Shown in pieces: positions 44,144 to 64,000 of a DNA stretch of 64,000 bases (positions are counted from its first letter, which is position 1; each line of letters begins with the position of its first letter). Under the pieces are notes generated by a model. That model saw nothing but the letters and a program-made list of their open reading frames with translations. It searched no databases and was not told the origin of the DNA. The stretch comes from Candidatus Nanopelagicales bacterium (GTDB taxonomy: Bacteria; Actinomycetota; Actinomycetes; S36-B12): assembly GCA_018402075.1 (NCBI GenBank), contig JAGYJP010000005.1:1-64000 (forward strand), in the 5' to 3' direction. The position numbers and the translations under genes were made by a program.

Positions 44144-45930
44144 ATCAACATCTACCGGTGAATCAATGGCGGGTGTTATTTTTCTCACCCAATGCCGGCT
44201 TATGGCAGACCAGTCAACTTGAACATGAATTAGCAAACGCACTGGCCCAACAAGGTGCTCAGGTCACAGTTATTCGCTGTAACGGACTTTTTGATTCTTT
44301 CTGTCCCACAATGCAAGCAGACCAGTTGACTGCGGAATCTACGAGTGCTGAGAGAGCAAGTATTTGCAGAGCCTGCCGCCGAGAAGAGGAAACACTCAGA
44401 AGCGTTGCGCATTACTCGACCACTTGGATTGACAATTACTTGAGTGATTCCGACCGTTGGGAAGTTGATGCACAGATCAGTTCGGTCAATCCAAGAAACT
44501 GGTCCGATATCCAACAGTTGGGGATATCCATTGGAAAATACGCAACGTACTTATCCATGCTCCATTACAAAGTGCCTGATGTCACAGCATCGGAAAACTC
44601 CTGGAATGAATACCTGAGTGACTTGAAAAATTCAATCTACGCAATCAAATCACTGCCGACGATTGTAGAAGAAACAAAACCTACACACGCTGTTGTGTAT
44701 AACCCGCTATACCCGACCAACCGAGTGTTCACGGAATTGGTTCTGCAAAAGCCGGATATTCAATATGTGGGCCTGAGTGCTTCAGGTTATGTTCCGGAGC
44801 GGCTTGCCACCCTGGCGCTGTATCGAAGTATTAAGTCAAGTCAAACTGTTGTGGATTCACAAACAATCACGGAGTCTGCGAGTGTGCCCATGTCCGAATT
44901 GGAAATCAGGTTGGTGGCGCGACATGTAGGCCAACTCGTGCAGGGGAGTGACCCTTGGGTCTACTCGACCCCACCCACTGCACTTGGTATCGATGTGATC
45001 AAGCGGAAACTAGGAATCAGTACGGATCGTCCCGCTGCACTTGTGGTGATTGGCAGCCCAGATGAAACCCGGTCATCGGCACTCGTAGATGCCGAATTTG
45101 AGCGAGTCCCCATTGATCAAGTGTCATCAGTTCAAGAATTCATTCAACAGATCCTTGAGGTGGCTCGTCATGAACCACACATCAATTTTGTTTTTAGATT
45201 GCACCCACGCCTAGCACCAAATAAACGGGAAAAACTTCGATCTCCTGATCTAGATGCAATTGAAGAACTCCTTTCAGACTTACCAGACAATGTTGTCACC
45301 AATGTGCCCAATGACGGAATAGGCCTTTATGACGTTGCCAGGATTGCGCAGGTGGGCATTAACCATGCATCAAGTGCCGGATTGGAGTTACTTGCTCTAG
45401 GAATTCCTGTGGTTCATTACGATCCTCCGCGCCTCAATGCTTACCCACCGGGTCTTGGGTTGGAGGTCGCTCGTTGTGATCACGAAGGCATGCGTCAGGC
45501 CTTAGCCCAAGCACTAGACACACCTATTTCTGCAGAAAATTCGGTTGCCGCGTGGCGTTGGTACGCGGTGACGTTGCTGCGTGCAGTTACGCATAAATCA
45601 TGGGACACCCCGCAACCTGATGACTCGACGCAATCCCCACCGAAACTTCAATGGCTTCGTAACGCGCTGCCGGAAAGTTTCAGGGAACGAGTATCACGTA
45701 CTCAGTCGCAGCGCAAGCGCACGAAACAAATCACCGATACCCAACAATCAGATAATTCACCTGTGTGGATCAACGAATGCATCACTCGGATGGCTGGCTT
45801 TGATAATTCCACCGTGTGGAATCCGACTGCCATAACGCGCGGGACACCCTTGTCCGAGGCCGAGGAGAAACAGCGAGTGATCAAAGAAGTACAGAAGATC
45901 TGGAACAACATTTCCGGAGCGGGGAACTAG
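44140..45930 (+). CDS. putative capsule-type GT-B glycosyltransferase with cysteine cluster
   Basis: Protein of 596 residues that I place only by overall layout. The start, WRVLFFSPNAGLWQTSQLEHELANAL, is GT-B-like. A short cysteine group follows (RCNGLFDSFCP, then SICRACRREEE, residues about 47-90) and might bind a metal. The middle has THAVVYNPLYPTNRVFTELV, and the C-terminal domain has INFVFRLHPRLAPNKRE and VGINHASSAGLELLALGIPVVHYDPP, which resembles the donor region of capsule enzymes such as KpsC/KpsS. A charged tail of about 90 residues ends it. The stop shares CTAG with convergent pseI. Confidence 0.6.
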   Translation: MNQHLPVNQWRVLFFSPNAGLWQTSQLEHELANALAQQGAQVTVIRCNGLFDSFCPTMQADQLTAESTSAERASICRACRREEETLRSVAHYSTTWIDNYLSDSDRWEVDAQISSVNPRNWSDIQQLGISIGKYATYLSMLHYKVPDVTASENSWNEYLSDLKNSIYAIKSLPTIVEETKPTHAVVYNPLYPTNRVFTELVLQKPDIQYVGLSASGYVPERLATLALYRSIKSSQTVVDSQTITESASVPMSELEIRLVARHVGQLVQGSDPWVYSTPPTALGIDVIKRKLGISTDRPAALVVIGSPDETRSSALVDAEFERVPIDQVSSVQEFIQQILEVARHEPHINFVFRLHPRLAPNKREKLRSPDLDAIEELLSDLPDNVVTNVPNDGIGLYDVARIAQVGINHASSAGLELLALGIPVVHYDPPRLNAYPPGLGLEVARCDHEGMRQALAQALDTPISAENSVAAWRWYAVTLLRAVTHKSWDTPQPDDSTQSPPKLQWLRNALPESFRERVSRTQSQRKRTKQITDTQQSDNSPVWINECITRMAGFDNSTVWNPTAITRGTPLSEAEEKQRVIKEVQKIWNNISGAGN

Positions 45931-46978
45931 GTCAACATATCGAGAGACAATGGTGTGCCCGCAGGGACATTGGCGGAGAAAACCCGGCCCAGCACTTCGG
46001 GGAGAAGCTTTGGGTGAAGGCCGTTATGCGGCCGGATCGACCGCACGTTTTCAGCTGTGACTATTTCTCCTGATATGACATCTGCGACAACAAAGAGTGA
46101 CCGCGAAAATCTGCGGCTACTTTTTCCGGCTTCGCTCAACTCAAATGTTGACATTCCAAGGCCACTTTCAAGCTCGCGAATGTGGTTGACCAACTCCTTG
46201 AATTCACTGGCTGAAGTGCTGAATCCTGAGTCGAGTCCTCCAGCACTGCGATCTAGGGTGATATGTCGCTCAAGCACCCGTGCTCCAAGAGTCACGGCAG
46301 CAAGGGCCGCGGTTGGTGTCATGGTGTGATCTGAATAGCCGGGAATGACATCAAACTTTTGTGCAATCGTTGGGATCGTGCGCAGGTTCAGATCCTGGGC
46401 GGGAGCAGGATATGCAGAGGTGCATTTGAGGACAACGATCTGATCATTGCCTTCATCGCGACATGCAGCAACGGCAGCGGAAATGTCAGCTTCACTGGCA
46501 ATACCAGTGGAAATCAGGACGGGTTTTCTTTGGCGGGCGACATGGCGAATGAGAGGAATGTCCACTATTTCAAATGATGCAATCTTGAAGGCCGGAACAT
46601 TGAGATTGGCCAAGTAGTCAACAGCGGTGGGATCAAATGGTGAGGAAAAAGCGGCCATTCCATGTGATTGAGCCAACTCAAATAACTCTTGGTGCCATTC
46701 CCAGGGCATGTACCCCTCTGAATAAATGGAATACAGGGTGCGTCCGTCCCAGGCTGTGCCATGTTCAATCTACGAAAAATCAGAGAATCAGACTCGAAGG
46801 TGATGAGGTCCGGGGTGATAGTCGAAACTTCACAGCATTGGCGGTATTGCAGAGGCAGCAGCACGAACGGTTGCTTGGGCTCTGCCGAAATCCTGCTGGT
46901 GATTCGCGGAGACTTCAGCAATGATGTAAGTCGGCAAGCCTGGACCAACGTCAGTGCCACCAATTTTCAAAGACCCAT
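45927..46978 (-). pseudogene. pseI: pseudaminic acid synthase, N-terminal part frame-disrupted
   Basis: The last 260 codons are intact and read as a PEP-dependent nonulosonic acid synthase: MPWEWHQELFELAQ, AFSSPFDPTAVDYL, VPAFKIASFEIVDIPL, ISTGIASEAD, LKCTSAYPAP, YSDHTMTPTAALAAV and a C-terminal SAF domain with NGLHPKLLPEVLG. AFKIASFE favours PseI over NeuB. The first 90 codons are recognisable (KIGGTDVGPGLPTYIIAEVSANH, VKF, TITPDLITFESDS, GTAWDGRTLYSIYSEGY) but lie in different frames; one missing base near each of 46974, 46846, 46825 and 46761 would restore them. Real decay or sequence error cannot be told apart here. Start inferred at ATG 46978. Confidence 0.8.
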
Positions 46979-47616
46979 GATAACTCTATGCACCCCGCTG
47001 CGTACCAGGTAACGTCATCAAGAGATTTCATGGGTATGAGGAGTGCATGTTCGAGAGTGTCCGGGTGACTGCCGAGGAGAATCGTAGTTATTTCCGCAGC
47101 AAGTGAGGCTGCTGCACCTTTCGCTGAGTCCTCGACCGTGATCGCCTGGTCTGAGTCACATTGAGTTTGGAGCGCAAGTAGATATGGATCAGCATGCGGC
47201 TTTCCAAATTCGGTGGAATCCGCCCAATGACACATTTTGAACATGGATTCCAATTGATGCCGGTCAAGCCATTTGGAAACCCGGTTCACCGGGCTAGAGG
47301 TAACAATTGCAAGCTCGATGCCTAGGGTCTGCGCTGCAGTGAGGAGCGATCCGGCCTGGGTGCTAGTTGTAGTTGTGTGTCAATGGTGTCAATAATTCCA
47401 AATATCATCAAAGATTAGTTCAGGCTCGCGGAGGTCATATTCTTTTTTCAGTTCAGCAACAACGATGGGCAGTGGCGGCCCATTGGAACTTTGGAACTCA
47501 GCAGTGGATCCTTCGATGTTGAATTCACGGAGAAATCTGGAGATACGCCGAGTGCAGTGCTGTGAAAATGGAGTCAACGAGTGTTCCATCGAAATCTAGG
47601 AATAGGCAGTTTTCAT
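46951..47616 (-). pseudogene. HAD-superfamily hydrolase, frame-disrupted
   Basis: Pieces of one HAD-IA phosphatase-like protein are visible in several frames: motif I LFLDFDGTLVDS just after ATG 47616, FLREFNIEGSTAEFQSS and LPIVVAELKKEYDLREPELIFDD, then GSLLTAAQTLGIELAIVTSSPV (motif II), and EFGKPHADPYLLALQ with VEDSAKGAAASLAAE (motifs III and IV). Each join needs a one-base change, for instance an A lost from AAAA at about 47610. Its end overlaps the pseI start. HAD phosphatases accompany nonulosonic acid genes in some clusters, where they may dephosphorylate the 9-phosphate intermediate. Confidence 0.7.
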
Positions 47617-47619
47617 GAT

Positions 47620-48422
47620 TTCTGTGAAAGATGAAGAGCCTGTTTTGACCGAAGTCACCGAACGGGGATCCTAACTCTGTGTGGTGGGCGATTCAGCTTT
47701 GTTGCGGCTTCTACTAGCGGATGTTTGTAGTCAATCTGTCCCGCCGTTAGTCGATGGCGCAAGTGCGTATAGCAATCGTGTCATGCAAACTTGAAATGTC
47801 AACAATCCCTTGAAGTGTGAGTCCGCACTTTGGCGAACTCAAGGAATGACACTTCATCGATGAAGGGGATTAAAGGAAGCCGGAGGCGAGGTTGAAGTCC
47901 CAGAGTTGTGTGAGATTATTTTGGCGTGCATACGATTGTTGACTATTCTCAATCGTAGATGTAACCGTTAGTAGCAACTCGCTCGGCAATGGACTTCAGT
48001 CCTCGCCTCTGGTTCTCACCAGACTCTAAATTGATGAGACAGCGAACGGTGAAGTAATATCAAAGTCGGTGGGTAACCTTCAATTTCTCAAGTTGCATGG
48101 CATCACCAACGCGGAAAGTGCAACGTTCATAGGTGTGCGCGGATCGTGCAGAACCGCGAGCATGTTCCACCATCTCGGGAACAAAATCGATACCGAATAT
48201 TTGACTCTTTGAAAACTTTGATGCAATGTAGACGCAGTTAACCCGTTTCCGCACCCTACTTCGAGAACAGGAGCTGGCGTTGCGTCAACTGACGTACCGA
48301 GCAAATGCACTGTTCAAGGCAGATAACTCAATGATTTTGCCTGTCTGAGTGGTCGCTTCTGATCGCTTCACCGTGTTCTTGAGCCCAACTATTCAATGGT
48401 CGTATATCTCTTCCTTATTCAT
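47620..48422 (-). pseudogene. SAM-dependent methyltransferase, frame-disrupted
   Basis: Start is probably ATG 48422 (MNKEEIYDH, then NSWAQEHGEAIRS after a lost base). Motif I is PAPVLEVGCGNGLTASTLHQ near 48260, followed in another frame by IFGIDFVPEMVEHARGS and CTFRVGDAMQLEKLK, then VRCLINLESGENQRRGLKSIA, IENSQQSYARQNNLTQLWDF and LHDTIAIRT. These are the ordered blocks of one roughly 260-residue class I methyltransferase, interrupted by at least four small frameshifts. Substrate unknown; it probably belonged with pseI and the HAD gene in one minus-strand operon. Confidence 0.65.
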
Positions 48423-48429
48423 GCTCGAC

Positions 48430-49100
48430 CTATCTCTGCCATATAGTCTGTAGTTATGCGTGGCAATGCCAGTATCCTATGGTCATCAATGGCACTTGAA
48501 TCCTTCCGTTCCTACACCGGACCCCGAAGTAGACATTGGTGCCTTGTCTGATGGAGAGTGGAATGGATCGTTATTGCGAGTCACTCAGTTTTCGAAGTTT
48601 CACTGACAGTAGTCCCTATTCCTATGGGCATCTGCCGCTGCGCGGGGGGTGGGCCGAGTGATCCCCTCTTCCTCGCAGTGACCGGTGTAACCCACCAGGA
48701 GGGCCTTGTCCTGGCAAGCGGGCGAACGATGTCACTGATGGGGGTATCTGGGAATTCGCTCCATCCGGGGGTGCAGAGACTGCCCATTGAGCATCAGATT
48801 CTTACAGAAGCGACGAGGAGCTTGGTGTCTCGGTCGATCATTGTCCATTGGTAGCCCTGTGCACTGTTTGTAGATTCCAGTGCCCACCGCCGACCTGATC
48901 ATCCCATTGCGGGTTAACCTCAGTGTGGCACACTTTGTAAGCACATTTGTGCCGGGGTGAGAGTACGAAAGAGTTGAGGTTGTGCGCTGGTCAAGTTGAG
49001 GCTTTTCTGGAATCATAACCTGCAGACTTGAGTGCCGTAACACCTTCATTTCGGGTCTCATCGATGAAGGAAAATTAGGTATTTTTCAATAGTAAATGCT
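48430..49100 (-). other. unassigned stretch, possibly another frame-disrupted gene
   Basis: No long open frame exists on either strand. On the minus strand short readable runs occur, such as FIDETRNEGVTALKSAGYD, TEVNPQWDDQVGGGHWNLQ, GQWTMIDRDTKLLVASV and DKALLVGYTGHCEEEG, in shifting frames. They look like protein-coding sequence with one-base indels, as in the flanking genes, but I do not recognise a family. A missing pathway gene such as pseG could be hidden here; I see no positive sign of it. Confidence 0.35.
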
Positions 49101-49104
49101 GACG

Positions 49105-49800
49105 TCATTCGGTGACCGCGGTCAGCGCGATTCCACGATCCATGGGCAGTGGCCCATCGCTTGCCCAGAAGTATAGATTTCTACGTTGCGTGGTGCACGG
49201 TTTCCAAGACTTGAACGTTCTTAAAACCATGGTTCAAGGAAGCGAACAAGATCGGATTTGTCGTGGAATTCGTATTCAAAGGCGTGCTTGCCAATGTCGT
49301 CGGGCTCAATGATGGTGTAACCGGAAAGAATTCCGCCCTCAGCCAACCGCGACTTTATGGTTCCCATCAGCTTGATTTCAGTTTCCGTGAAATGCTCAAT
49401 AGCCGCGTCCCAAATAACATTGTCGTAGAACCTCTCAGGAATATCGGTTCTGATGTCACCGAGGAGGTAGCGAATATTTGAGTAGGAGCAATTCTTCTTA
49501 GCTGTCGCGATCGCCGAGGGATCAAAATCGATCGAGGTAATTGATTCGGGCTTGAGCACTGTAGAAGTGATAGGTGTTGAAACCGTCGCCACAGCAGAGT
49601 TCCAAAACCTTGGGCAGTCGGCTCCCACAACGGGTTGCTTGCAGGGCAAGCGAGGAGTAGACACCGCGCTCCCACGGGAATGACTGTCTATTCGCGACCA
49701 TGCCAGTGTTGGTCAATGAAGTGATCAAAATATTCGGGGGTTATCACCGCCCCATTCCACTTGGGATGTGAGTTCGTGGGCAGCTGAAGCAACTTTGTGG
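49105..49800 (-). pseudogene. second SAM-dependent methyltransferase, frame-disrupted
   Basis: Ordered blocks in different frames: ASAAHELTSQVEWGG, YFDHFIDQHWHGRE, RQSFPWERGVYSSLALQ, motif I LPKVLELCCGDGFNTYHFYS near 49610, then a one-base shift to SITSIDFDPSAIATAKKN, NIRYLLGDIRTDIPERFYDNV, WDAAIEHFTETEIKLM and LAEGGILSGYTIIEPDD. After another shift FKNVQVLETVHH and ATRNLYFWASDGPLPM end the protein. This is a single class I methyltransferase of about 220 residues with three or more one-base frameshifts. The exact start is unclear. Confidence 0.7.
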
Positions 49801-49833
49801 TTAGCCCTGCTTAAGCCAAGGGAAATAGGCACC

Positions 49834-49850
49834 AAACGAAAAGTTCGTTT
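49834..49850. repeat. short perfect hairpin upstream of the C-methyltransferase gene
   Basis: AAACGAA, loop AAG, TTCGTTT gives a 7 bp stem. It lies in the roughly 250-base gap between the disrupted methyltransferase and the gene at 50051. A direct repeat TAGGCACC flanks it on both sides. I see nothing else in this gap. Confidence 0.35.
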
Positions 49851-50050
49851 TGCTTTAGGCACCGCCCTGTTATGAATGTGCTGACTGTGCTCAACGAGAT
49901 CATGGGCCACGCGCCTGTACCCCTTAGTTCTTTGGATCGAGCTACTGACTTCGCTAGTCTAGGACGAGACAATAATTGATTAATCGGTTATCCGAGTGCG
50001 TTGGGACCTAGTCAGCCGTGAATCTTGTAATCAGAGGGAGAGCCAAAACT

Positions 50051-51302: not shown

Positions 51303-52250
51303 ATGGATAACTTTGGGATCATGCTGAAGTCTTATGGTCCCGACTTGCAATATGCCCAGCGTTTTCTTGAGTCCTTTCTCGCATATGCAACTGAACCGAT
51401 CCCGCTTTTTGTTGTTGTGCCCGACCAAGACATCCCTGCGTTTACTGAGGTGTTTGTTAGTCATGCAACAGTGTTGCCCGAGTCATTGTGGGCGGACCAA
51501 TTAGTGGACTACCCAATCCACGGTAACAATCCTGGTTACATCAATCAAGAGATCATTAAATTAGCTTTTGCCGAAAGCGGCTATCTCAGGAACTATCTCT
51601 GCGCCGATTCGGAGGCGGTCTTCATTCGTCCATTTAGTTCTCACGACTTCATGGACCCCACCGGAGTCCCTTACTCGTTCATAACTGAAGATCACGAATT
51701 GCATGTCGATCCGATTTACTTTGATGCATATTGGACTGCTAGGCAGCAGTTTCTTCTACAGATTCGTGAATTCCTCGAGCTTCCAGCAACTCCGATCGCA
51801 ACTTGTCACAACATGGCGGTGTTTTCCAGCGAGCAGGTACTCAACCTCAAAGAGTATCTGGCGGATCGTGGATTGAACTGGGCGAGTGCATTGGAGATTT
51901 CACCCTATGAATTCGGGTGGTATAACTTCTGGACTGAGAAGGTGCAGGGAACTTCTAGAAAAATTCGTGAGCCAATTGTGTTAATGCTGCATCAACCACA
52001 CCAGCACCTCGAGTATTCACTGAAAGGAATCTCCGAAAACGACCTTGCTCGAGGCTATGTTGCAGTATTGATAAACTCCGGTTTTGCTCAAGATCACGGT
52101 GTCATTGACTTCCAGGAACCAATTGCCAACACGCTTTCTCGGTATATCAGCTATCGGGTTCTTTTCGGTGCCGTATTTGAAAGAACGTTTGTTCGCGCAC
52201 CTCGTATTCGTTCGCTCCTTGGTCGAGGACGCAAGCCACGTACTAGTTGA
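51303..52250 (+). CDS. DUF6492-type putative glycosyltransferase
   Basis: Protein of 315 residues, paralogous to 56826-57854. Shared landmarks: LKSYGPDLQYAQRFLESF, PLFVVVPDQDIPAF, PGYINQEIIKLAFAE, CADSEAVFIRPF (a DxD-like acidic site), EISPYEFGWYNFW, HQHLEYSLKGI and VINSGFAQDHGVIDF. The fold is probably GT-A, but the family has no characterised activity that I know. ATG 51303 is used because it opens right at the conserved start; an in-frame GTG 51297 is possible. It lies 10 bases after the C-methyltransferase gene and so may transfer the branched sugar. It converges on pseH. Confidence 0.65.
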   Translation: MDNFGIMLKSYGPDLQYAQRFLESFLAYATEPIPLFVVVPDQDIPAFTEVFVSHATVLPESLWADQLVDYPIHGNNPGYINQEIIKLAFAESGYLRNYLCADSEAVFIRPFSSHDFMDPTGVPYSFITEDHELHVDPIYFDAYWTARQQFLLQIREFLELPATPIATCHNMAVFSSEQVLNLKEYLADRGLNWASALEISPYEFGWYNFWTEKVQGTSRKIREPIVLMLHQPHQHLEYSLKGISENDLARGYVAVLINSGFAQDHGVIDFQEPIANTLSRYISYRVLFGAVFERTFVRAPRIRSLLGRGRKPRTS

Positions 52251-52827
52251 TCAAATAAGCATGGGCAAAGCTGTCAACCGGTGCACCATTGATGAGATGG
52301 TGATCGCGTAAGAGACCTTCTTGGGTGAAACCGAAATCCTCGAGGATTTCAATCAATTCCGACCGAATGCTGTACGTCTCGGTGGTGAGTTTATGGAAGC
52401 CAATTCTGCGAGCAAGTTGGACAAGAAGCTTCAGGTACTCACACCAATCCTGGGAAAAGATATGGTGCTCAGACCGATCTATATCGGTTAAAAACGACAC
52501 CTCAGCGCGGCGATCAGACCAGACAATATGCACGAAACCGCCATAACCAACAAGTAGGGAATCCTCGAGGAAAGCAAACAGAATCTGTTTAGGCTGTTCC
52601 TGGGCTAGTTGCGGCAGGACTAAGTTCGAAAAGTAGTTATCTTGATCAGCCACGGATAAAGGATTTTGTTGCCGCAGGACGTCAATCTGGGCATTGCGCC
52701 ATTCTCGGATTGCATGACGATCATTCCAGTGAATAGGTCTGAGTTGGTATCGGTTATCGGCACTTGTGGCGGTGAGCTCGGGGAAGAAGCGATAGCCCGA
52801 ATCCCACTGGGGGTCATGCTCAACCAT
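52243..52827 (-). CDS. pseH: UDP-4-amino-sugar N-acetyltransferase (GNAT)
   Basis: GNAT enzyme of 194 residues expected to acetylate the 4-amino group of the PseC product with acetyl-CoA. Visible: YQLRPIHWNDRHAIREWRNAQ, VLRQQNPLSVADQDNYF, ILFAFLEDSLLVGYGGFVHI and AEVSFLTDIDRSEHHIF, and the C-terminal ELIEILEDFGFTQEGLLRDHHLING. This is the RimJ/RimL-like layout of PseH proteins. It overlaps the pseC stop by 8 bases and ends the pseF-pseB-pseC-pseH unit. Confidence 0.85.
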   Translation of the reverse strand: MVEHDPQWDSGYRFFPELTATSADNRYQLRPIHWNDRHAIREWRNAQIDVLRQQNPLSVADQDNYFSNLVLPQLAQEQPKQILFAFLEDSLLVGYGGFVHIVWSDRRAEVSFLTDIDRSEHHIFSQDWCEYLKLLVQLARRIGFHKLTTETYSIRSELIEILEDFGFTQEGLLRDHHLINGAPVDSFAHAYLIN

Positions 52828-53923
52828 GAAATTCCAGAACGTCTGTCAAGGTTGCAATCACAATGTCCTGTTCTGACTCGGTGAGTCCAGGGAAAGTAGG
52901 AATACTGATCAGTCCGTTATAGACGGAGTCGGCGTGGGGGTAGCCACCCGGTGGGATCGCGATGTCGGTACTCACACCGTGGTGGTGAACGGGGACGTAG
53001 TGCACTTGCACACCTATTCCGCGTTTGCGTAAATCAGCAAATACTTCGCGTCGTTGGGGAACCCGAATGGCAAAAAGGTGGTAGCCGTGGAGCGCACCTG
53101 CAGGTGCGCCGGGGGGTAACTCAAGGGGTAGTTCTGACAGTTTCTCCCGGTACCGCTCGGCAATAGCGTTACGTTCGGCAATGAACCGGTCAAGTTTCCC
53201 CAACTGACTAAGACCCAAAGCGGCCTGAATGTCAGTTAATCGGTAGTTGTAACCGAGGTTAGCCGCGTTGTATTCCCAGGACAGTGGATCCGTATTCGTC
53301 TTGATTCCATGGGAGCGGAATTCCTTAAGCGCTTGGGCATAATCCGCGTTGTTGGTGGTGACTGCGCCACCTTCGCCCGTGGTGATTGGCTTGACCGGGT
53401 GAAATGAAAAAACGCACATGTCACTGTGTGTTGTGGCGCCAATCTTCTCGGTTGTACTCCGCGCACCCAGGGCGTGGGATGCATCTTCGATGATCACCCG
53501 TGGGCGAGCGGGTAGAGCACCGAGTTCCACCGGGAGTCCTGCATAGTGCACAGGAATCACGGCTTGAATGTTTTCGGTGATCTGTTTGGTATCAATATTG
53601 AAAGTAGACGGATCGATGTCAATTAACGCCGGTGTGGCGCCGACATAGCGAGCACAATTTGCACTTGCGATAAAAGTCAATGGACTCGTGTGAACCACGT
53701 CTCCGGGTCCCAAACCTGCGACAGCGCACGCAGCATGGAGGGCCGCCGTGGCTGATGAAAATGTGACCGCGTATTTCGCTCCAACGTAGTCGGCGAGAGC
53801 CTCTTCGAATTCGGTAACGGCCGGACCGGTGGTCAACCAGTCGCTCTTGAGAACTTTTTCAACAGCGGCAATGTCAGCGGCATCCACCTGCTGGCGGCCG
53901 TAGGGAATCATGGATTGGCTCAC
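52820..53923 (-). CDS. pseC: UDP-4-amino-4,6-dideoxy-N-acetyl-altrosamine transaminase
   Basis: PLP aminotransferase of 367 residues in pseudaminic acid synthesis. Visible: MIPYGRQQVDAADIAAVEKVLKS start, DWLTTGPAVTEFEEALADYVGA, FSSATAALHAAC, the cofactor-binding acid in VIIEDASHALGA, Schiff-base Lys in SFHPVKPITTGEGGAV, and NYRLTDIQAALGLSQL. YGRQ plus the SFHPVK pattern fits PseC. It starts one base before the end of pseB, so it is coupled to it. It takes the 4-keto sugar made by PseB. Confidence 0.93.
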   Translation of the reverse strand: MSQSMIPYGRQQVDAADIAAVEKVLKSDWLTTGPAVTEFEEALADYVGAKYAVTFSSATAALHAACAVAGLGPGDVVHTSPLTFIASANCARYVGATPALIDIDPSTFNIDTKQITENIQAVIPVHYAGLPVELGALPARPRVIIEDASHALGARSTTEKIGATTHSDMCVFSFHPVKPITTGEGGAVTTNNADYAQALKEFRSHGIKTNTDPLSWEYNAANLGYNYRLTDIQAALGLSQLGKLDRFIAERNAIAERYREKLSELPLELPPGAPAGALHGYHLFAIRVPQRREVFADLRKRGIGVQVHYVPVHHHGVSTDIAIPPGGYPHADSVYNGLISIPTFPGLTESEQDIVIATLTDVLEFHG

Positions 53924-54898
53924 TTAGCCTCGAGCAATCCAGTTTTGCAATTCCGGAATCGTTAACCATTGGTCATTAGTGTCGGAGGAGTAAGAGAAAC
54001 CTTCTGCAACCGCTTCACCCTCTGAATCCTTGAACCACCACTCCTTAACTGTTGGCTGCACTACGTAGCGATCTGCTTGGCGCAGTGTCCGGTAGCTGTC
54101 GTCAGAGGCAATCATTTCCTCGTGGAGTTTCTCACCCGGACGAACACCAACAACATAAGTTTCGACACCCGGCTTGAGAGCTTCGACCAGATCCATGATT
54201 CGCATGCTGGGTATCCGTGGGACGTATAGTTCCCCACCATGCATAGTGTCGAATGAGTCAATCACAAACTGAACAGCCTGGGGCAGGGTTATCCAGAATC
54301 GGGTCATGTTGGGATCGGTAATGGGAAGTGGTTTGTTCTCAGCGATTAATTCCTGGAAGAACGGAATCACGGACCCTCGACTGCCCATGACATTGCCGTA
54401 GCGCACAACCGCCATAGACGTGTTGTAACTGTAGCTGTAATTGTTAGCTGCAACAAATAATTTGTCGGCCGTCAGTTTTGTTGCCCCATACAAATTGATG
54501 GGTGAGGACGCCTTATCAGTTGAGAGTGCAACGACCTTTTTCACACCAGCATCAATGGCTGCGTCAATAACATTCTGACTGCCGAGAATATTTGTTTGTA
54601 CATACTCGAACGGGTTGTACTCAGCGGTATCAACTTGTTTGAGGGCTGCGGCGTGGACCACGTAGTCCACACCGTGGAAGGCCCGGATCAAACGATCTTT
54701 GTCGCGGATGTCACCGAGAAACCAGCGAATTCGTTTGTCGGTGAAGTGTGCCCGCATCTCTGACTGCTTGAGTTCGTCGCGGGAAAGGATCGCAACCCGG
54801 CGAGGATTGTGAGTTGTCAAAACCTCTTGGAGGAATGCCTTACCAAAGGAACCTGTGCCCCCGGTGATCAAAATCGAGGATTCATCAATGACTGACAC
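53924..54898 (-). CDS. pseB: UDP-N-acetylglucosamine 4,6-dehydratase (inverting)
   Basis: SDR of 324 residues, the first committed enzyme of pseudaminic acid synthesis. Visible: ILITGGTGSFGKAFLQEVL, SRDELKQSEMRAHF, FLGDIRDKDRLIRAF, VVHAAALKQVDTAEYNPFE, and the catalytic LSTDKASSPINLYGATKL with its Asp, Tyr and Lys, all typical of PseB/FlaA1. VRYGNVMGSRGSVIPFF and MTRFWITLPQAVQF follow. GTG 54898 is preceded by AAGGAG. It lies 9 bases after pseF. Confidence 0.95.
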   Translation of the reverse strand: MSVIDESSILITGGTGSFGKAFLQEVLTTHNPRRVAILSRDELKQSEMRAHFTDKRIRWFLGDIRDKDRLIRAFHGVDYVVHAAALKQVDTAEYNPFEYVQTNILGSQNVIDAAIDAGVKKVVALSTDKASSPINLYGATKLTADKLFVAANNYSYSYNTSMAVVRYGNVMGSRGSVIPFFQELIAENKPLPITDPNMTRFWITLPQAVQFVIDSFDTMHGGELYVPRIPSMRIMDLVEALKPGVETYVVGVRPGEKLHEEMIASDDSYRTLRQADRYVVQPTVKEWWFKDSEGEAVAEGFSYSSDTNDQWLTIPELQNWIARG

Positions 54899-54907
54899 TT
54901 AGTCTCC

Positions 54908-55654
54908 TTATGTGAGTTTTCCGTGCTGGTTAAGACTACCGGTCTCCGTTACGGACGTGTTTTCTCGCACCGTGAGCAGTGTTTCAGCTCGTATCCAGTC
55001 TTCCTCGGTATCCAGATCCACAGTTTCGGCGTGTGAAAGTGGAAACCCATGGGCTCGGGTTAATGCGGGTTCGCTCTGTGACCAAGTGAGTGCACTGCCC
55101 CAGATAAACGCCCCGGCATCGTGCCAACTTTCGGGCAAGTCTTGGGTGCGCGTCGAGGCGTACTCGGGTGAAAGCATGGTCAACTCACCACCATCACTGA
55201 TTTCCAGTGCCCGTTGGATGGGATGCGGGTAACGCACGACCGCTGTGAGAAATGAATTGGAGCTGGCCGGATGAGCCAGCATTGCCTCAAAGACCTGCCA
55301 ACTATTGACCAGTTCATCGGGGTGCACGGTGACGGCGGTGGTGTAGAAGCAACAGATTGGTGTGGTCGGGTCATAGTCCACTGTGGCTTCGGCGATCACA
55401 GGGAGTAAAGGGGTGTGGTCGTCAGCTAAAGTAAGGGGTCGGTTGTGAACTTGGGCACCCTTAGCTCGGGCAAGTTCAGCTATCTGGTCCGAGTCGGTGC
55501 TCACCACAATCGATTCGAATATCCCAGATTCCTGACAGATCCGAATCGCGCGGGTAATCAAGGGAACCCCAAGCATGGATCGAGAGTTTTTCCCGGGAAT
55601 CCGCTTGGATCCGGCGCGTGCCGCAATAATGGCAATCGGTTGAGCGGTGGTCAC
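54908..55654 (-). CDS. pseF: CMP-pseudaminic acid synthetase (pseudaminate cytidylyltransferase)
   Basis: Cytidylyltransferase of 248 residues that activates the nonulosonic acid with CTP. The opening IAIIAARAGSKRIPGKNSRSMLG is the CMP-sialate synthetase signature; VVSTDSDQIAELARAKGAQV, NRPLTLADDHTPLLPVIAEA and CCFYTTAVTVHPDEL follow, and YPHPIQRALEI with QDLPESWHDAGAFIWG is typical of PseF. GTG 55654 has TAGGCT six bases upstream, so it is a leaderless start and the first gene of its unit. Confidence 0.92.
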   Translation of the reverse strand: MTTAQPIAIIAARAGSKRIPGKNSRSMLGVPLITRAIRICQESGIFESIVVSTDSDQIAELARAKGAQVHNRPLTLADDHTPLLPVIAEATVDYDPTTPICCFYTTAVTVHPDELVNSWQVFEAMLAHPASSNSFLTAVVRYPHPIQRALEISDGGELTMLSPEYASTRTQDLPESWHDAGAFIWGSALTWSQSEPALTRAHGFPLSHAETVDLDTEEDWIRAETLLTVRENTSVTETGSLNQHGKLT

Positions 55655-58669: not shown

Positions 58670-59513
58670 TCAGGAGATATGGGCTGGAGTCGGTGTTTAC
58701 TGGTCTGGCAGATTCGACAGCTATCCATGTCCACCCTGTTCAAATCGTTATCGAGCAGAATGGCATTTCGACGCAAGACTCCTGATGGTCGAGCAAAGAC
58801 TTCCACGTCCCACTCCTCCCAAGGGGTAGTTTCATTTACCCATTTGTCTAACTTCCAGTTGGCGATCGGTGCCGCGACGAATTTAAATCTCGCGATTTTA
58901 ATACGTATTCAAGAAAGCGAATAGGCCTTCTGGCCGTATGGACGGCCTGAAAGCCAAATCTCTGGTTCTCTCCTGGCTAAGCCGTTCGTCACGAGCAATC
59001 TCCACCTTAATTTGGATTCATCGCTAATAGTACTTAAAGGCGTTGTGTGGGACGCGAAAACACTGGCATTAATAATCAAAATTGTTGGACGAGTGGCAGT
59101 AAACGACTATGTGAATGATTGTCCTCACGCCTAGGCTGTCGGGGGCGCCCACCTAATTCTCAGGCCGAATTACCCAAGAGATTCTTCTGAATTTCGGACT
59201 GGGGAACAGTGATTGCGATGACGAACTGGAAAACCGAAATCACTTCGTTCTCACGTTACATAAGACGGGGAGCATAGGAGAGAAAGAGTGGCCTTTTCGT
59301 TGGCGAAAAGGCTGCAACCACAGTTCGAGGTAGAAATATATGAGTGGTGTCTGTGTTCTCGGGAGGGACCCCTCATCATAAGTAGATTCTTGTGGAAATT
59401 GGAATGCTCACAAAAACAATTGACTGGTAAATTCTACTATGCTCGGCATTCAAAGGGAAAAAGTCTCATAAATTGTGTGTGACTGGTTCTTGGATGTGAA
59501 AGATGTGATAGCG
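58670..59513. other. gap without a convincing gene
   Basis: About 840 bases between the methyltransferase and the right-hand operon. No frame of useful length shows a family motif. The frame from GTG 59288 reads AFSLAKRLQPQFEVEIYEW, slightly like the start of a GT4 enzyme, but then loses sense; it could be a remnant. A hairpin GGCCGT/ACGGCC lies at 58932-58947 and a longer one at 59291-59312. The gap marks a change to more AT-rich sequence. Confidence 0.5.
59291..59312. repeat. perfect 9 bp hairpin
   Basis: GCCTTTTCG (59291-59299), loop TTGG, CGAAAAGGC (59304-59312). Neither side has a long T tract. It may be an mRNA leader structure or boundary element for the operon that begins about 200 bases downstream. 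Confidence 0.5.
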
Positions 59514-60458
59514 GTGAAAAAGAAATTAGTGTCAATCGTTGTTCCTGCGTACAACGAGACAGATTGCGTTGATGAGTTGGCTCTCCAATTGACGAATCTT
59601 TTCGACGTGGAATCAGATTATGACTGGGAAGTGATAGTCGTCGAAAATGGATCGATTGATGACACATGGAATAAACTGCAACGCATCCATGAACAAGATC
59701 ATCGTTTTAAGATTGTTCGACTGGCTCGAAACTTTCGAATGGATGGAGGGTTGACCGCAGGCCTCAATTTTGTAAGTGGCGACGCATGTGTGTTGATGAC
59801 TGCCGATTTGCAGGATCCCCCAGAACTCATTCATGAGTTCCTCCGACAGTGGGAAAATGGTTACGAAAATATCTACGGTGTGGTTACCGAACGTCAGGGT
59901 ACCGGGCCTATTCGAACCTTTAATTCAAAAGCATTTTATTGGCTGGCAAGAAAATTGACTGATGGAAAAATTCCCAGCAACGCCAGCGACTTTCGATTGT
60001 TAGACCGAACTGCTTATGAGGCTGTTTGCTCGATGGAGGAACGCAATCGTTTTGTTCGAGGACTGGTCGCTTGGGTAGGCTTTAAGTCAATCGGCATTCC
60101 GTTCCAGAGACCACCAAGGTTTGCTGGCGTGTCTAATGCTCATTCGTTAAAAGTCATTGAGTTAGCCTTCAAAGGAATTTTCGCCCACACGTATATCCCA
60201 CTTCGATTTATAACCATCTTAGGAATTTCCATTTCTGCAATTTCGTTTTTGGGACTAATAACCTTATCGATTTTGTGGCTCGCGCGAGGCGTTCCATTTG
60301 TCGGGTTCGGGACGATTGTAGCTTTGGTTCTTTTGCTTTTTGGCGTCTTGACCTTCATGATCGGTATCGTCAGCGAATACGTGGGCCTCATCTATGAGGA
60401 AGTCAAAGCAAGGCCCAATTACATCGTTTCGCAATCCTTAGGGTTTCACAATGAGTAG
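59514..60458 (+). CDS. GtrB/ArnC-like polyprenyl-phosphate glycosyltransferase (GT2)
   Basis: Protein of 314 residues. GT-A part: VSIVVPAYNETDCVDELALQL, WEVIVVENGSIDDT, LARNFRMDGGLTAGLNFVSGD, VLMTADLQDPPELIHEF with the metal-binding DLQD, and NASDFRLLDRTAY. Two C-terminal transmembrane helices (about residues 228-250 and 260-285) anchor it. This is the layout of enzymes that make undecaprenyl-phosphate sugars. GTG 59514 fits the family length, though in-frame GTG codons at 59475 and 59496 exist and none has a clear Shine-Dalgarno. It overlaps the SDR gene by 8 bases. Confidence 0.85.
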   Translation: MKKKLVSIVVPAYNETDCVDELALQLTNLFDVESDYDWEVIVVENGSIDDTWNKLQRIHEQDHRFKIVRLARNFRMDGGLTAGLNFVSGDACVLMTADLQDPPELIHEFLRQWENGYENIYGVVTERQGTGPIRTFNSKAFYWLARKLTDGKIPSNASDFRLLDRTAYEAVCSMEERNRFVRGLVAWVGFKSIGIPFQRPPRFAGVSNAHSLKVIELAFKGIFAHTYIPLRFITILGISISAISFLGLITLSILWLARGVPFVGFGTIVALVLLLFGVLTFMIGIVSEYVGLIYEEVKARPNYIVSQSLGFHNE

Positions 60459-61134
60459 TCGAGCAATTGTGTTTGGAGCGAGCGGGGCCCTTGGATCCAC
60501 AATTTGCCAGAATCTTGAGTCGAACCATGTGGATGTTCTCAGAGTTTCAAGGAAGGAGTCCCGTGACACTGGGTGGCTTTCACTGGCAACACCTGATTGG
60601 CCAAATGAGATTGAGCCACTTAGTGTCAATCAAGTTATCTGGGCTCAAGGGTTGAACGCAGAGGGAAGTATCCTCAACTCCGGTGTTGACCAGTTGGAGT
60701 CTCTCTTTGAAGTCAATGTGCTTTTTGTCGCTCAAACATTACGTGCGCTAATTGACCGAAATGTATTTGAGCAGCCTGCCAGACTAGTCATCGTTAGTTC
60801 CGTTTGGCAACAAACGGCCCGTAATGAAAAACTTGCCTATGTCACAACAAAAGCGGCACTTTCTGGCTTGGTGCGCTCGCTAGTTATTGACCTCGGTCCC
60901 CTAAAAATTTCAGTAAATGCGGTGCTCCCCGGTGTTGTTGAAACTCCGATGTCTCGAAAATACCTCACAGCGGAGCAGATTCGAGACCTTGAGAAAAGTA
61001 CACCAAATGGCCAATTGGTATCACCGGATGAAGTTGCCCATGTTTGTACTTGGCTCTCGAGTCCCATGAGTTCTGGAGTCAATGGCCAATTCATCACAGT
61101 GGATGGTGGCTGGAACGAAGTTCGATATGTCTGA
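60451..61134 (+). CDS. classical short-chain dehydrogenase/reductase
   Basis: Protein of 227 residues. IVFGASGALGSTICQNL is the NAD(P)-binding glycine motif; WAQGLNAEGSI replaces the usual NNAG; catalytic Ser is in LVIVSSVWQQ, Tyr and Lys in AYVTTKAALSGLVRSL; the end VNGQFITVDGGW is standard. Short N-terminal spacing suggests NADPH preference is not decided. Set between the GT2 and the cyclase with 8-base overlaps on both sides, it probably reduces or oxidises a keto group on the intermediate made by the next two enzymes. Confidence 0.85.
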   Translation: MSSRAIVFGASGALGSTICQNLESNHVDVLRVSRKESRDTGWLSLATPDWPNEIEPLSVNQVIWAQGLNAEGSILNSGVDQLESLFEVNVLFVAQTLRALIDRNVFEQPARLVIVSSVWQQTARNEKLAYVTTKAALSGLVRSLVIDLGPLKISVNAVLPGVVETPMSRKYLTAEQIRDLEKSTPNGQLVSPDEVAHVCTWLSSPMSSGVNGQFITVDGGWNEVRYV

Positions 61135-62194
61135 ATTCAGCGTCTCGACCTCTCGTGGCAGTTATCAGGTTCAAATTGGAGAGAATCTAGTTACTCGTGC
61201 GACTACCAATGCTGACTTAGTCCTAATTGATGATTATGTTGGAAGACTTCTTCTAGATGCTCCCAACCCGTCAACGATTTCCGTCCCAGGAAACGAGGAG
61301 ACTAAAACACTCGCGGGGTGTGAAGACATCCTTCGACAGATGAACATCTTGGGAACTAAAAGAGGCGACGTCCTCGTTGCCGTGGGCGGAGGTGCCATAC
61401 AAGACGCGGCCACCTTGGTGGCCTCCTTATATATGCGTGGCATCCCTTGGATCTACTGCCCATCTACGGCAATGTCCATGGCAGATTCATGCATCGGTGG
61501 GAAGAGTTCGATCAACGTTGCAGGGATTAAGAATCTAGTCGGCAATATTTATCCGCCACAGCAAGTCTTGATTGACCCCTCGCTTGCTGCTGGACTATCA
61601 ATTGAGGCTAAAATTTCCGGACTAGGTGAAGCTGTCAAGATATGTTTTGCAACGGGTGAATCGGCATTTGGTAAATACCTGGAATTAGCAGAATCCCCGG
61701 AACTATTCGGCAAAACTCCAAGGACCGAAGACCTTCTACTGCACGTACTGTCTGCAAAGAAGTGGTTCATCGAGGTGGACGAATTTGACAGGAAGGAGAG
61801 ACAGCTTCTCAACTTTGGACATACATTTGCTCACGCCCTCGAATCGGCATCAGGGTTTGCCCTTCCGCATGGAATAGCCGTCGTTCTCGGCATACTGGGG
61901 GCAATTTCACATCCGGCATCCGTTCAATCTTCAGGAACCCAAGCGTTGAAGCACTACTGCCAAGAACTTCTTGCCCCGATTGGGGAGTTAGTGACTTCGA
62001 CTTCCGAGAGGGTGGATTGGACTCTGTTTGAGCAGGCTGTCCTTACGGATAAGAAGGGCTCCCGCAACGATATTCGGCTTGTTCTACCGGTGTCCTCAGG
62101 GGGCCTGGGGCTTGTCTCATTCCCTCGAGGTTCCGAATCATTAAAGGCCATTAGGGAATCAATGGCTCAGAGTTTAGGACAAGTGATCGCATGA
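61127..62194 (+). CDS. 3-dehydroquinate synthase-like sugar-phosphate cyclase
   Basis: Protein of 355 residues in the dehydroquinate synthase superfamily of NAD- and metal-dependent cyclases. Visible: VLVAVGGGAIQDAATLVASLYMRG (NAD site), ADSCIGGKSSINVAG with K126, GLGEAVKICF with metal ligand E168, KERQLLNFGHTFAHALE with H232 and H236, and LPHGIAVVLGI with H248. H232 and H248 are 16 apart, as in true synthases. Departures from housekeeping enzymes (STAMSMADSCIGGKSSIN for TTLLAQVDSSVGGKTGVN; AHALE for GHA-E) and the context argue for a specialised cyclase acting on another sugar phosphate, such as a heptulose. It overlaps both neighbours. Confidence 0.82.
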   Translation: MSEFSVSTSRGSYQVQIGENLVTRATTNADLVLIDDYVGRLLLDAPNPSTISVPGNEETKTLAGCEDILRQMNILGTKRGDVLVAVGGGAIQDAATLVASLYMRGIPWIYCPSTAMSMADSCIGGKSSINVAGIKNLVGNIYPPQQVLIDPSLAAGLSIEAKISGLGEAVKICFATGESAFGKYLELAESPELFGKTPRTEDLLLHVLSAKKWFIEVDEFDRKERQLLNFGHTFAHALESASGFALPHGIAVVLGILGAISHPASVQSSGTQALKHYCQELLAPIGELVTSTSERVDWTLFEQAVLTDKKGSRNDIRLVLPVSSGGLGLVSFPRGSESLKAIRESMAQSLGQVIA

Positions 62195-64000
62195 AGTACT
62201 CGGATCAGTTTGTCGATTGGCTTTGTGAAGAGGGCTACACCCATTGCTTCTATGTCGCTGGTGGAAACATTATGCACCTTCTCAATTCAGTTCGAACGAG
62301 GATGGTGTGCGTGTCCTTTGTACACGAAGTTGGCGCCGGAATCGCGGCTGAATATTTCAATGAGTCGAACGAAGACGGAGGTGGAAGAGCCTTTGCATTG
62401 GTAACAGCGGGCCCTGGTTTAACCAACATACTTACAGCTATGGCTGGAGCGTACTTAGAGAGCCGCGATCTCCTCGTTGTTGGAGGCCAGGTGAAAAGCG
62501 ATGATCTCACCACAGGTGGCTTAAGACAACGAGGCATCCAAGAAATCGATGGGATGGCTCTGGCGCAACCAATTACGGTAAAGACTCTACGGATTCGTGA
62601 GCCACTAAGTCGGACCGAGATAGTAAATGCGGTACGGGAAGGTCGCTCTGGGCGTAAAGGTCCTGTATTCATTGACTTTTGTCTTGACGCGCAGGGTGCT
62701 CCTCCTGTAGAGGAATCCATCACAAATTCAGCGAAGGATCAATTTGTTGCCTTCGTCCCTGAAGTTGACAGGAACCTTGTAACTCAGGTGGTCCAATTGC
62801 TTTCTGAAGCGGAGCGCCCCCTGATTTTGCTGGGTGGGGGTGTAAGCAGAAAAAAGGCCGAGCAAATTATGCCGGAACTTGAGAAACTGGGCGTTCCTAT
62901 CTCCACGACATGGAATGCTGCTGATCGGATTGGCAGCGAGCATCCGCTCTACTTCGGTCGGCCAAATACTTGGGGAATGCGGTGGTCAAATGTCCTGATT
63001 CAGCAGGCAGATTTGGTCCTAGCACTAGGTACCCGATTGGGATTGCAGCAGACCGGTTTTAATTGGCAAAAATTTGCTCCGCTGGCCAAAGTAGTGCAAG
63101 TTGACATTGATGAACATGAATTGTTGAAAGGACACCCAATCTTGGATATCGCGGTGAGAGCGGATGCAAGCGAATTCCTTGAGCTACTAACGACGGAGAT
63201 CAATTCAAAGCCAGATGGGACAGGTGCTAGTGGTGAATGGGAGACTTGGGTCAACTTTGGACGTGATGTGGCCGGGCTACTCCCAACCAACGATCCCCTA
63301 AACGCCCACGCTGAAGGGTTCGTGGACCCTTATGAATTTATTCAGATCCTCAGTGCCGCACTCGAAGACAACGATGTAATCGTCCCGTGCAGCAGTGGAG
63401 GTGCCTTCACTGTGATGATGCAAGCATTTGCTCAAAAGGATGGCCAGCGGATCATCACCAATAAGGGTCTTGCCAGCATGGGCTACGGCCTATCTGGAGC
63501 AATTGGCGCGGCGTTAGCTAATAAAGGCAGTAGGACGATTTTAGTTGAGGGAGACGGTGGATTTGCCCAGAATTTACAAGAGTTAGGCACTGTCGCGGCT
63601 CAGCGGCTGAATCTGAAAATCTTTATATTTGCAAATTCCGGCTACGCATCCATCCGAATGACTCAGCGAAACTACTTTGAGGGCGCTTACATGGGTTGCG
63701 ACACTTCGACAGGTCTAGGCTTGCCCGACTGGGATTCCCTTTTTAAGGCTTACCGAATTCCAGTCATGGAATTGAACCCGACGATTCCCCTAGATGAGAA
63801 TGCAATGCAATTTTTGCTGGAACCCGGGCCTGCCGCTTTCATAGTGCCAATTGACCCGGAACAAACATACTTCCCAAAGATAAGTAGTCGAATCACAAAG
63901 AATGGCACTATGGAGTCAAACCCACTACACCTCATGCATCCACTGTTATCCGATCAGGTTAGAGACACGGTCATGCCCTATTTACAGGAGAGCTTTAGAT
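62191..64000 (+). CDS. acetolactate-synthase-like TPP-dependent enzyme, partial at right edge
   Basis: At least 603 codons are visible with no stop before the edge. The three-domain TPP fold is clear: residues 1-165 with the cofactor-activating E46 in SFVHEVGAG and VTAGPGLTNILTAMAGAYLE; a central domain with PLILLGGGVSRKK and VLALGTRLGLQQ; and a TPP/magnesium domain with ILVEGDGGFAQNLQEL (G454 on) and FIFANSGYASIRMTQRNYF. It resembles IlvB-type enzymes of O-antigen loci rather than housekeeping IlvB. It may move a two-carbon unit from pyruvate to a sugar (as YerE does) or cleave a diketone ring (as IolD does). ATG 62191 overlaps the cyclase stop. Confidence 0.82.
   Translation, partial: MKYSDQFVDWLCEEGYTHCFYVAGGNIMHLLNSVRTRMVCVSFVHEVGAGIAAEYFNESNEDGGGRAFALVTAGPGLTNILTAMAGAYLESRDLLVVGGQVKSDDLTTGGLRQRGIQEIDGMALAQPITVKTLRIREPLSRTEIVNAVREGRSGRKGPVFIDFCLDAQGAPPVEESITNSAKDQFVAFVPEVDRNLVTQVVQLLSEAERPLILLGGGVSRKKAEQIMPELEKLGVPISTTWNAADRIGSEHPLYFGRPNTWGMRWSNVLIQQADLVLALGTRLGLQQTGFNWQKFAPLAKVVQVDIDEHELLKGHPILDIAVRADASEFLELLTTEINSKPDGTGASGEWETWVNFGRDVAGLLPTNDPLNAHAEGFVDPYEFIQILSAALEDNDVIVPCSSGGAFTVMMQAFAQKDGQRIITNKGLASMGYGLSGAIGAALANKGSRTILVEGDGGFAQNLQELGTVAAQRLNLKIFIFANSGYASIRMTQRNYFEGAYMGCDTSTGLGLPDWDSLFKAYRIPVMELNPTIPLDENAMQFLLEPGPAAFIVPIDPEQTYFPKISSRITKNGTMESNPLHLMHPLLSDQVRDTVMPYLQESFR

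Follow-up and report, generated by a model that had tools for sequence, protein, structure and literature searches.

Four overlapping genes at positions 59514 to 64000 were identified in a window of 64,000 nucleotides (the whole stretch of DNA analysed here, from contig JAGYJP010000005.1 of a Candidatus Nanopelagicales bacterium). They encode a family 2 glycosyltransferase (GT2), a short-chain dehydrogenase/reductase (SDR), a cyclase of the dehydroquinate (DHQ) synthase superfamily and a thiamine pyrophosphate (TPP) enzyme, and this cassette probably builds an undescribed branched sugar with a carbon ring, which would be passed to a lipid carrier for decoration of the cell surface. The fuller reading takes the four genes for the conserved core of a cassette that has spread horizontally and makes a C4-branched, carbocycle-bearing deoxy sugar; it was given about an even chance of being correct. 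Each enzyme family is already known, and it is the fixed combination that seems new. An earlier note on this DNA, made from the letters alone, knew of no described glycan pathway with such a combination, and a cyclase, a YerE-like enzyme and cytidine diphosphate (CDP)-glucose genes were likewise not found together in the open-licence literature, which was covered mostly as titles and the starts of abstracts.

The four genes are all on the plus strand of a large polysaccharide locus that also contains pseudaminic-acid genes. The GT2 gene (59514..60458, PF00535) was of the polyprenyl-phosphate glycosyltransferase type represented by ArnC, GtrB and PgfS, with an alternative in-frame GTG start at 59475. 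It is followed by the SDR gene (60451..61134, PF13561/PF00106) and the cyclase gene (61127..62194, PF01761 and PF24621), for which the ATG at 61127 was preferred to a longer frame from 61082, because many homologues begin at the corresponding MSE or similar. The TPP enzyme (62191..64000, PF02776, PF00205 and PF02775), a YerE/JanthE-like carboligase dependent on thiamine diphosphate (ThDP), is the last gene and is cut by the window end. Its frame (62191-63999) is free of stops up to that point and gives 603 residues versus 607 in the nearest homologues, therefore about four last residues are missing; the closest homologue, at 96% identity, comes from a contig of 30.6 kb. The overlaps in the order GT2-SDR-cyclase-TPP were 8, 8 and 4 bases, within the 4-8 bases that the earlier note had read.

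The same note had described the set as more AT-rich than its surroundings and preceded by a gene-free gap, and both points held. The AT-richness is genuine yet modest, with a GC content of 0.487 in 59514-64000 versus 0.523 in 1-58669, and GC at third codon positions of 0.43-0.49 in the cassette genes versus 0.50-0.57 in seven other, hand-picked genes of the window; equally low GC was found in other 1-kb bins, e.g. 0.462 at 25-26 kb. The gap (58670..59513, about 840 bases) separates a divergent methyltransferase-like gene from the cassette, and no ORF (open reading frame) longer than 81 amino acids starts there except the GT2 frame. No RNA family of Rfam scored above its gathering score anywhere in the window, gap included. 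A scan of the gap gave one promoter-like site (1.2 expected) and three terminator-like sites (0.8 expected).

The cassette is conserved in relatives, both in Actinomycetota and in alphaproteobacteria. Thirteen loci from 13 genomes, with cyclases of the clade to which that of the window belongs (clade A, below), were gathered through the cyclase; five (L001-L005) came from Actinomycetota and Rhizobium sp. AC27/96, and eight more from further genomes. Genes were counted by tblastn, because ORF calls gave spurious long frames in the GC-rich locus L094. The cyclase was present in all 13 loci, and GT2, SDR, the TPP gene and an HpcH-like gene in 12 each, with the TPP gene of L096, which is split across two frames, included in the count. 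For CDP-glucose metabolism, RfbF was counted in nine loci, RfbG (at least 90 bits) in eight and RfbH in six, and at least one of these genes was present in 11 of the 13, the remaining two being contigs of 4.3 and 5.6 kb. The control was 75 other cyclase loci (L006-L080), which together with L001-L005 are 80 selected from at least 581 relatives (at least 594 stretches), a selection and not a census. There the TPP gene, the HpcH-like gene and RfbF were never found, while RfbG appeared three times, RfbH and SDR twice each and GT2 once, all at 133 bits or less. Because of these co-occurrence counts, 13 clade-A loci versus 75 others, the linkage of the cassette goes beyond chance. The order GT2-SDR-cyclase-TPP itself was kept in 5 of the 13 loci (L004, L091, L092, L096 and L161).

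The cyclase formed a clade of its own within the superfamily. Its best NCBIfam match was TIGR04425 (248.8 bits, cut-off 400), and aroB (TIGR01357) gave 215.0 bits (cut-off 305), both under cut-off. In a midpoint-rooted tree of 59 cyclases (of 60 rows, the truncated row L116 left out), where the rows of 2-deoxy-scyllo-inosose synthase (DOIS) and of the Ebo cluster are long branches, it was placed in clade A (25 rows) with support of 100/100. The join of clade A to clade B, which has 5 rows, had support of 100/99, and the two together were set apart from the AroB rows, DOIS, two annotated sedoheptulose-7-phosphate (S7P) cyclases and an Ebo-cluster enzyme. All 25 clade-A rows have the catalytic residues of dehydroquinate synthase (DHQS) that were checked, whose roles and A. 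nidulans numbering are assumed here. In addition, 14 positions were fixed to at least 90% in these rows and shared by no more than 15% of 25 AroB-type rows; several adjoin the K125-S126-S127 loop, in agreement with the earlier observation that the metal ligands and the key Lys are retained while the substrate loops differ.

The positions aligned to DHQS K250, R264, N268, H275 and K356 were all kept in the window cyclase. They read K/G/E/H/N in one annotated DOIS (L107); the two annotated S7P cyclases, L108 and L109, have M/(K or E)/D/P/(V or A) there, and the window cyclase has none of the active-site substitutions of DOIS (n=1) or of these S7P cyclases of the 2-epi-5-epi-valiolone synthase (EEVS) type (n=2). 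The predicted fold (predicted local distance difference test, pLDDT, 86.5) was nearest to DHQS entries. A substrate like 3-deoxy-D-arabino-heptulosonate 7-phosphate (DAHP) therefore seems likelier for the cyclase, judged from its sequence, than S7P or glucose-6-phosphate, since the DHQS residues are kept while DOIS and the S7P cyclases alter several of them. A cyclitol of the valiolone or inosose type, made from S7P or glucose-6-phosphate and then modified in an IolD-like or YerE-like way, is very improbable: the superfamily is shared, and DOIS 2d2x (rank 26) and EEVS 4p53 (rank 32) were found by fold below the best DHQS entries, yet of five DHQS positions kept here several are changed in the DOIS and S7P cyclases compared, and these enzymes were placed elsewhere in the tree. 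The valiolone and 2-deoxy-scyllo-inosose precursors named in the earlier note are thus not supported, given the DHQS-like active site.

The TPP enzyme was found to group with YerE-like enzymes, apart from rows labelled acetolactate synthase (ALS). It scored 227.3 bits with the NCBIfam model acolac_lg (TIGR00118), under the cut-off of 538, and its nearest solved structure was 8rph (286 bits, about 31% identity), which gave 423 bits with the TPP enzyme of L140. In the available part of PMC12188165, 8rph is described as JanthE, a YerE-like enzyme of Janthinobacterium sp. HH01 which joins 2-keto acids to ketones and whose physiological substrates were not identified. A tree of 28 rows was midpoint rooted and contains several long branches, with two long-branch joins flagged. 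The cassette enzymes and JanthE formed a single clade there (100/99), and the cassette rows alone were weakly supported as one clade (69/51). A group made of the cassette enzymes, JanthE, 5ahk (presumably PpYerE) and a second TPP enzyme of L095 was split at 96/96 from eight further TPP enzymes that these genomes encode, labelled ALS without individual checking, and the second TPP enzyme of L103 also fell outside this group. The ThDP motif is intact, with the catalytic E46, G454-D455-G456 and N482. Ring opening of the IolD type, also mentioned in the earlier note, found no evidence, and there was no IolD model among the best 25 of 53 NCBIfam matches.

The second TPP enzyme of L095 (L095:2538-4235), near the cassette, grouped with 5ahk at 99/96 in one of the flagged long-branch joins; by its sequence it suggests an adjacent yersiniose-type pathway in that locus.

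Taken together, the two trees bear on whether the set might consist of housekeeping or duplicated genes of the shikimate and branched-chain amino-acid pathways. Homologues are indeed named 3-dehydroquinate synthase and acetolactate synthase large subunit in their sources, but the cut-offs of aroB (215 under 305) and acolac_lg (227 under 538) were missed, both enzymes fall in separate clades, and second copies exist in relatives, so that this explanation can be almost dismissed. Two PF01761 matches were present in each of the seven genomes G001-G007, in all of which the SDR adjoins the cyclase. Among the 12 genomes searched for the TPP enzyme, ten had the full cassette enzyme, and nine of these ten had at least one further TPP match, while G003 had none at the threshold used. 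The cyclase as sole aroB and the TPP enzyme as sole acetolactate synthase, which the earlier note had named as grounds for giving up its idea, were therefore not what the relatives contain.

The genes beside the cassette in relatives would fit a CDP-sugar and a keto acid as starting materials. In L140 (genome G1281), both RfbF (474 over 300) and RfbG (509 over 278) passed the equivalog cut-offs, with genes for a GtrA-family protein and a methyltransferase lying between those for the TPP enzyme and GT2. The RfbH of L004 (702 versus 423), the RfbF of L092 (334 versus 300) and the RfbG of L090 (358 bits, cut-off 278) were also over cut-off. Hydroxylated 2-keto acids are the kind of compound made by HpcH/HpaI aldolases, and the best PDB match of the predicted model of the L004 HpcH-like protein (pLDDT 88) was an HpcH/HpaI aldolase (E 2e-8); searched by sequence, two representatives had no PDB match at E 0.01. 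Residues E113 and D143, which we take to be metal ligands, were invariant in 11 rows, one of which is an HpcH/HpaI protein of 120 Pfam bits.

Genes of FGGY-type carbohydrate kinases were observed near a clade-A cassette (L140:5017-6468) and near a clade-B cyclase (L102:11215-12399), and such kinases are a possible source of the phosphate for a reaction of the DHQS type.

The remaining two proteins are consistent with sugar reduction and lipid loading. The SDR is a classical one with intact motifs (cofactor GASGALG, catalytic YVTTK). For GT2, the best NCBIfam matches were PgfS (234.8 bits, cut-off 500) and ArnC (133.4 bits, cut-off 529), both under cut-off, so its likeness to glycosyltransferases of the ArnC/GtrB type is a resemblance only.

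A pathway of six steps could be drawn from these genes. CDP-glucose would first be made and turned into CDP-4-keto-6-deoxyglucose by RfbF and RfbG, with 3-deoxygenation through RfbH in some relatives. An aldolase of the HpcH/HpaI type would then condense pyruvate with a sugar phosphate into a 2-keto-3-deoxy acid that resembles DAHP and is phosphorylated at its end; both steps would be encoded past base 64000 or elsewhere in the source organism. In the third step the TPP enzyme would decarboxylate this acid and transfer the acyl chain onto the C4 ketone, giving a tertiary alcohol. The grafted chain would resemble DAHP, the sugar standing where DAHP has its carboxylate, and in the fourth step the cyclase could close it into a cyclohexane ring through oxidation, phosphate elimination, reduction and closure. 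The SDR may then reduce either the ketone of the ring or that of the acyl part, and GT2 would finally load polyprenyl phosphate with the sugar, which would be flipped and attached as a side chain. The families, their linkage in relatives, the distinct clades and the preserved catalytic residues are observed; all the substrates named, as well as the order of the third and fourth steps, are those which we infer from the gene families. The proposal of the earlier note, an uncommon branched carbocyclic sugar used as a side decoration, survives in this pathway, being supported by the conserved cassette, the YerE-like TPP enzyme and the CDP-glucose and GtrA genes in relatives, and its valiolone-type precursors and ring opening are left behind.

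The chain of caryophyllose is 2'-deoxy 1',3',4',5'-hydroxy, matching the skeleton of a decarboxylated 7-deoxy DAHP. Ring closure after branching was favoured because the grafted chain, with its phosphate, would mimic the DAHP array: a grafted sugar that retained the end phosphate would carry ketone-CH2-CHOH-CHOH-CHOH-CH2-O-P, the same as in DAHP. In this case the DHQS-type cyclase would act on a nucleotide-linked sugar, closing the DAHP-like chain grafted at C4 of a CDP-deoxyhexose, and the product would be a C12 sugar with a direct C-C bond between hexose and carbocycle. This part is put forward tentatively and is rather doubtful on present evidence. To our knowledge, it would be the first ring closure on a nucleoside diphosphate sugar by the DHQ synthase superfamily. 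The C12 sugar, if real, would represent a class of surface monosaccharide not described before, and closure of the ring on the sugar would give the superfamily a new reaction and bacterial surfaces a new type of monosaccharide.

Several findings weigh against the branched-carbocycle pathway. Orthologues of RfbF, RfbG, RfbH, the HpcH-like protein and an epimerase were not found in the window, the CDP-glucose and HpcH-like partners lying outside it, therefore the first two steps rest on relatives. Among those relatives, the RfbG of L092 (199.8 of 278) and the RfbF of L090 (293.7 of 300) were under cut-off, the HpcH-like family is divergent (25-31 Pfam bits, template modelling score about 0.50-0.60), and L090 has no SDR match. 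The GT2 and TPP enzyme of three alphaproteobacterial loci were just 31-36% identical to those of the window. The counts themselves are weakened by close kinship within the 13 loci (L140/L141, L091/L092 and L002/L090) and by a control set that is mostly AroB-type, with many such loci and two of clade B. In L001, a TPP remnant of 42 residues (2809-2934) stands between the cyclase and the HpcH-like gene, and no other TPP match in that genome exceeded 152 bits; this lineage, or its assembly, has lost the TPP enzyme and retained the SDR, the cyclase and the HpcH-like gene. The cyclase also retains the Arg and Lys of DHQS, presumably carboxylate binders, which a free keto acid would fit better than a grafted sugar.

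The last two points lead to a different order of events, in which the acid comes first. The aldolase would make a DAHP isomer, which the cyclase would turn into a dehydroquinate-like acid and the SDR into a quinate-like cyclitol acid; the TPP enzyme would separately make a branched sugar from pyruvate, and the acid would be joined to this yersiniose-like sugar. Such a route accounts for the retention of all DHQS residues checked, with the presumed carboxylate binders among them, for the gene content of L001, and for clade B, in which four of the five loci have an SDR beside the cyclase, with neither this TPP enzyme nor this HpcH-like family. It leaves the presence of the TPP gene together with the cyclase in 12 of 13 loci unexplained, and no ligase or acyltransferase was noticed among the annotated conserved neighbours, for which no systematic search was made. 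We regard it as unlikely, though as the nearest competitor, and because the conserved carboxylate-side residues favour it, the order of steps in the branched-carbocycle pathway is held loosely.

The cassette could also make an open-chain C4-branched sugar of the caryophyllose or erwiniose kind, with the cyclase merely dehydrating or dephosphorylating the donor and forming no ring. Such a sugar would need no more than a YerE-like enzyme, CDP-glucose genes and an aldolase. A cyclase that forms no ring would sit poorly with DHQS catalytic residues kept in 25/25 clade-A rows and with an SDR paired with the cyclase in 12 of 13 loci, and this simpler product was judged improbable.

The spread of the cassette across phyla is patchy, which suggests horizontal transfer. 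At the thresholds used, 3 of 396 genomes in a sample of one phylum had a cyclase of clade A or B, two being seeds. The figures were 7 of 296 for one order (two seeds, and one belonging to clade B), 4 of 224 for one class (one new) and 3 of 397 for a sample of a rhizobial order (two of clade B, and a seed of clade A). In a genus taken to be Bradyrhizobium, 258 of 265 genomes matched the cyclase profile at E 1e-45, and two of the 265 had a clade-A cyclase, at about 1e-110. Among plasmid records no match to the TPP enzyme was found at E 1e-100 and every cyclase match was under 60% identity; one scan of viral contigs gave no relative of the TPP enzyme.

Clade B was also observed in its own right. 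In the loci L006, L007, L097, L101 and L102, the SDR adjoins the cyclase in four of five and a Gfo/Idh-type oxidoreductase is present in four of five; L101 carries both a CTP_transf_3 gene and an unambiguous HpcH/HpaI one, L102 has the FGGY-kinase gene, and no YerE-like enzyme was seen in these loci. Clade B is probably a second, different carbocycle cassette.

Elsewhere in the window, pseudaminic-acid genes were recognized at 52243-55654, where PseB (486 bits) and PseC (425) were over the equivalog cut-offs, and PseF was just under (202.8 of 205.7). By eye, a small protein there with no NCBIfam match is PseH-like. Within 45927-50018, a PseI-like gene was just above cut-off (341.3 bits) and covers only model positions 74-327. 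About 3.3 kb beside it hold short ORFs only (at most 147 amino acids), which by eye look like fragments of an HAD hydrolase and of methyltransferases, and the stretch was read as decayed or frameshifted. At 4196-6705, two similar secreted proteins (414 and 434 amino acids) are encoded side by side and were taken for glycoside-hydrolase-type paralogues by reading only.

Compared with known systems, the window cyclase shares the fold and the checked catalytic residues of AroB, and differs from it by the separate clade, the 14 clade-specific positions and other gene neighbours, while all seven genomes searched contain a further PF01761 gene in addition to the clade cyclase. TIGR04425, an AroB-related putative sugar phosphate phospholyase (cyclizing), was the best match, yet under its 400-bit cut-off, and no paper on this accession was found in the open-licence literature. 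A possible precedent in PMC4275268 was rejected: in its available part, the synthase BPSL3168 and the CDP-glucose genes BPSS0419-0420 do not form a cassette, since their locus tags belong to different series.

For an inositol-fused ring, the bradyrhizose pathway was considered. Bradyrhizose is described, in the source as available, as a C10 bicyclic sugar of photosynthetic Bradyrhizobium with hemiacetal closure possible on O4, O5 or O9, and an 11-gene cluster that includes a 4,6-dehydratase gene is implicated. The photosystem family PF00124 was matched in 75 of 397 genomes of the order, and G1035, picked among these, had neither a clade-A cyclase nor the cassette TPP enzyme (best 145 bits). 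The cassette is thus probably not the bradyrhizose pathway, if G1035 is, as we suppose, a Bradyrhizobium and a maker of bradyrhizose.

JanthE is the closest solved relative of the window TPP enzyme and differs from it in having CDG where the window enzyme has the canonical GDG. According to the available sections of PMC12247030, YerE moves activated acetaldehyde onto CDP-3,6-dideoxy-4-keto-glucose, hydroxylated 2-keto acids are preferred by ErwE and MMAR_2332, and more than 200 YerE-like enzymes are predicted, for the vast majority of which a sugar structure is lacking. The C12 sugar caryophyllose bears, in the available part of PMC7821131, a C6 chain at C4 that is hydroxylated. The cassette supplies YerE-like enzymes with regular partners (cyclase, SDR, HpcH/HpaI-like gene and CDP-glucose genes), and therefore a specific, testable prediction of a product. 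With the C4-branching pathways of yersiniose A, erwiniose and caryophyllose it shares a ThDP enzyme in the JanthE clade and CDP-glucose genes alongside in 11 of the 13 relatives; no cyclase is named for those pathways in the sections of PMC12247030 available, whereas the present cassette regularly includes an SDR and a cyclase of the DHQS type.

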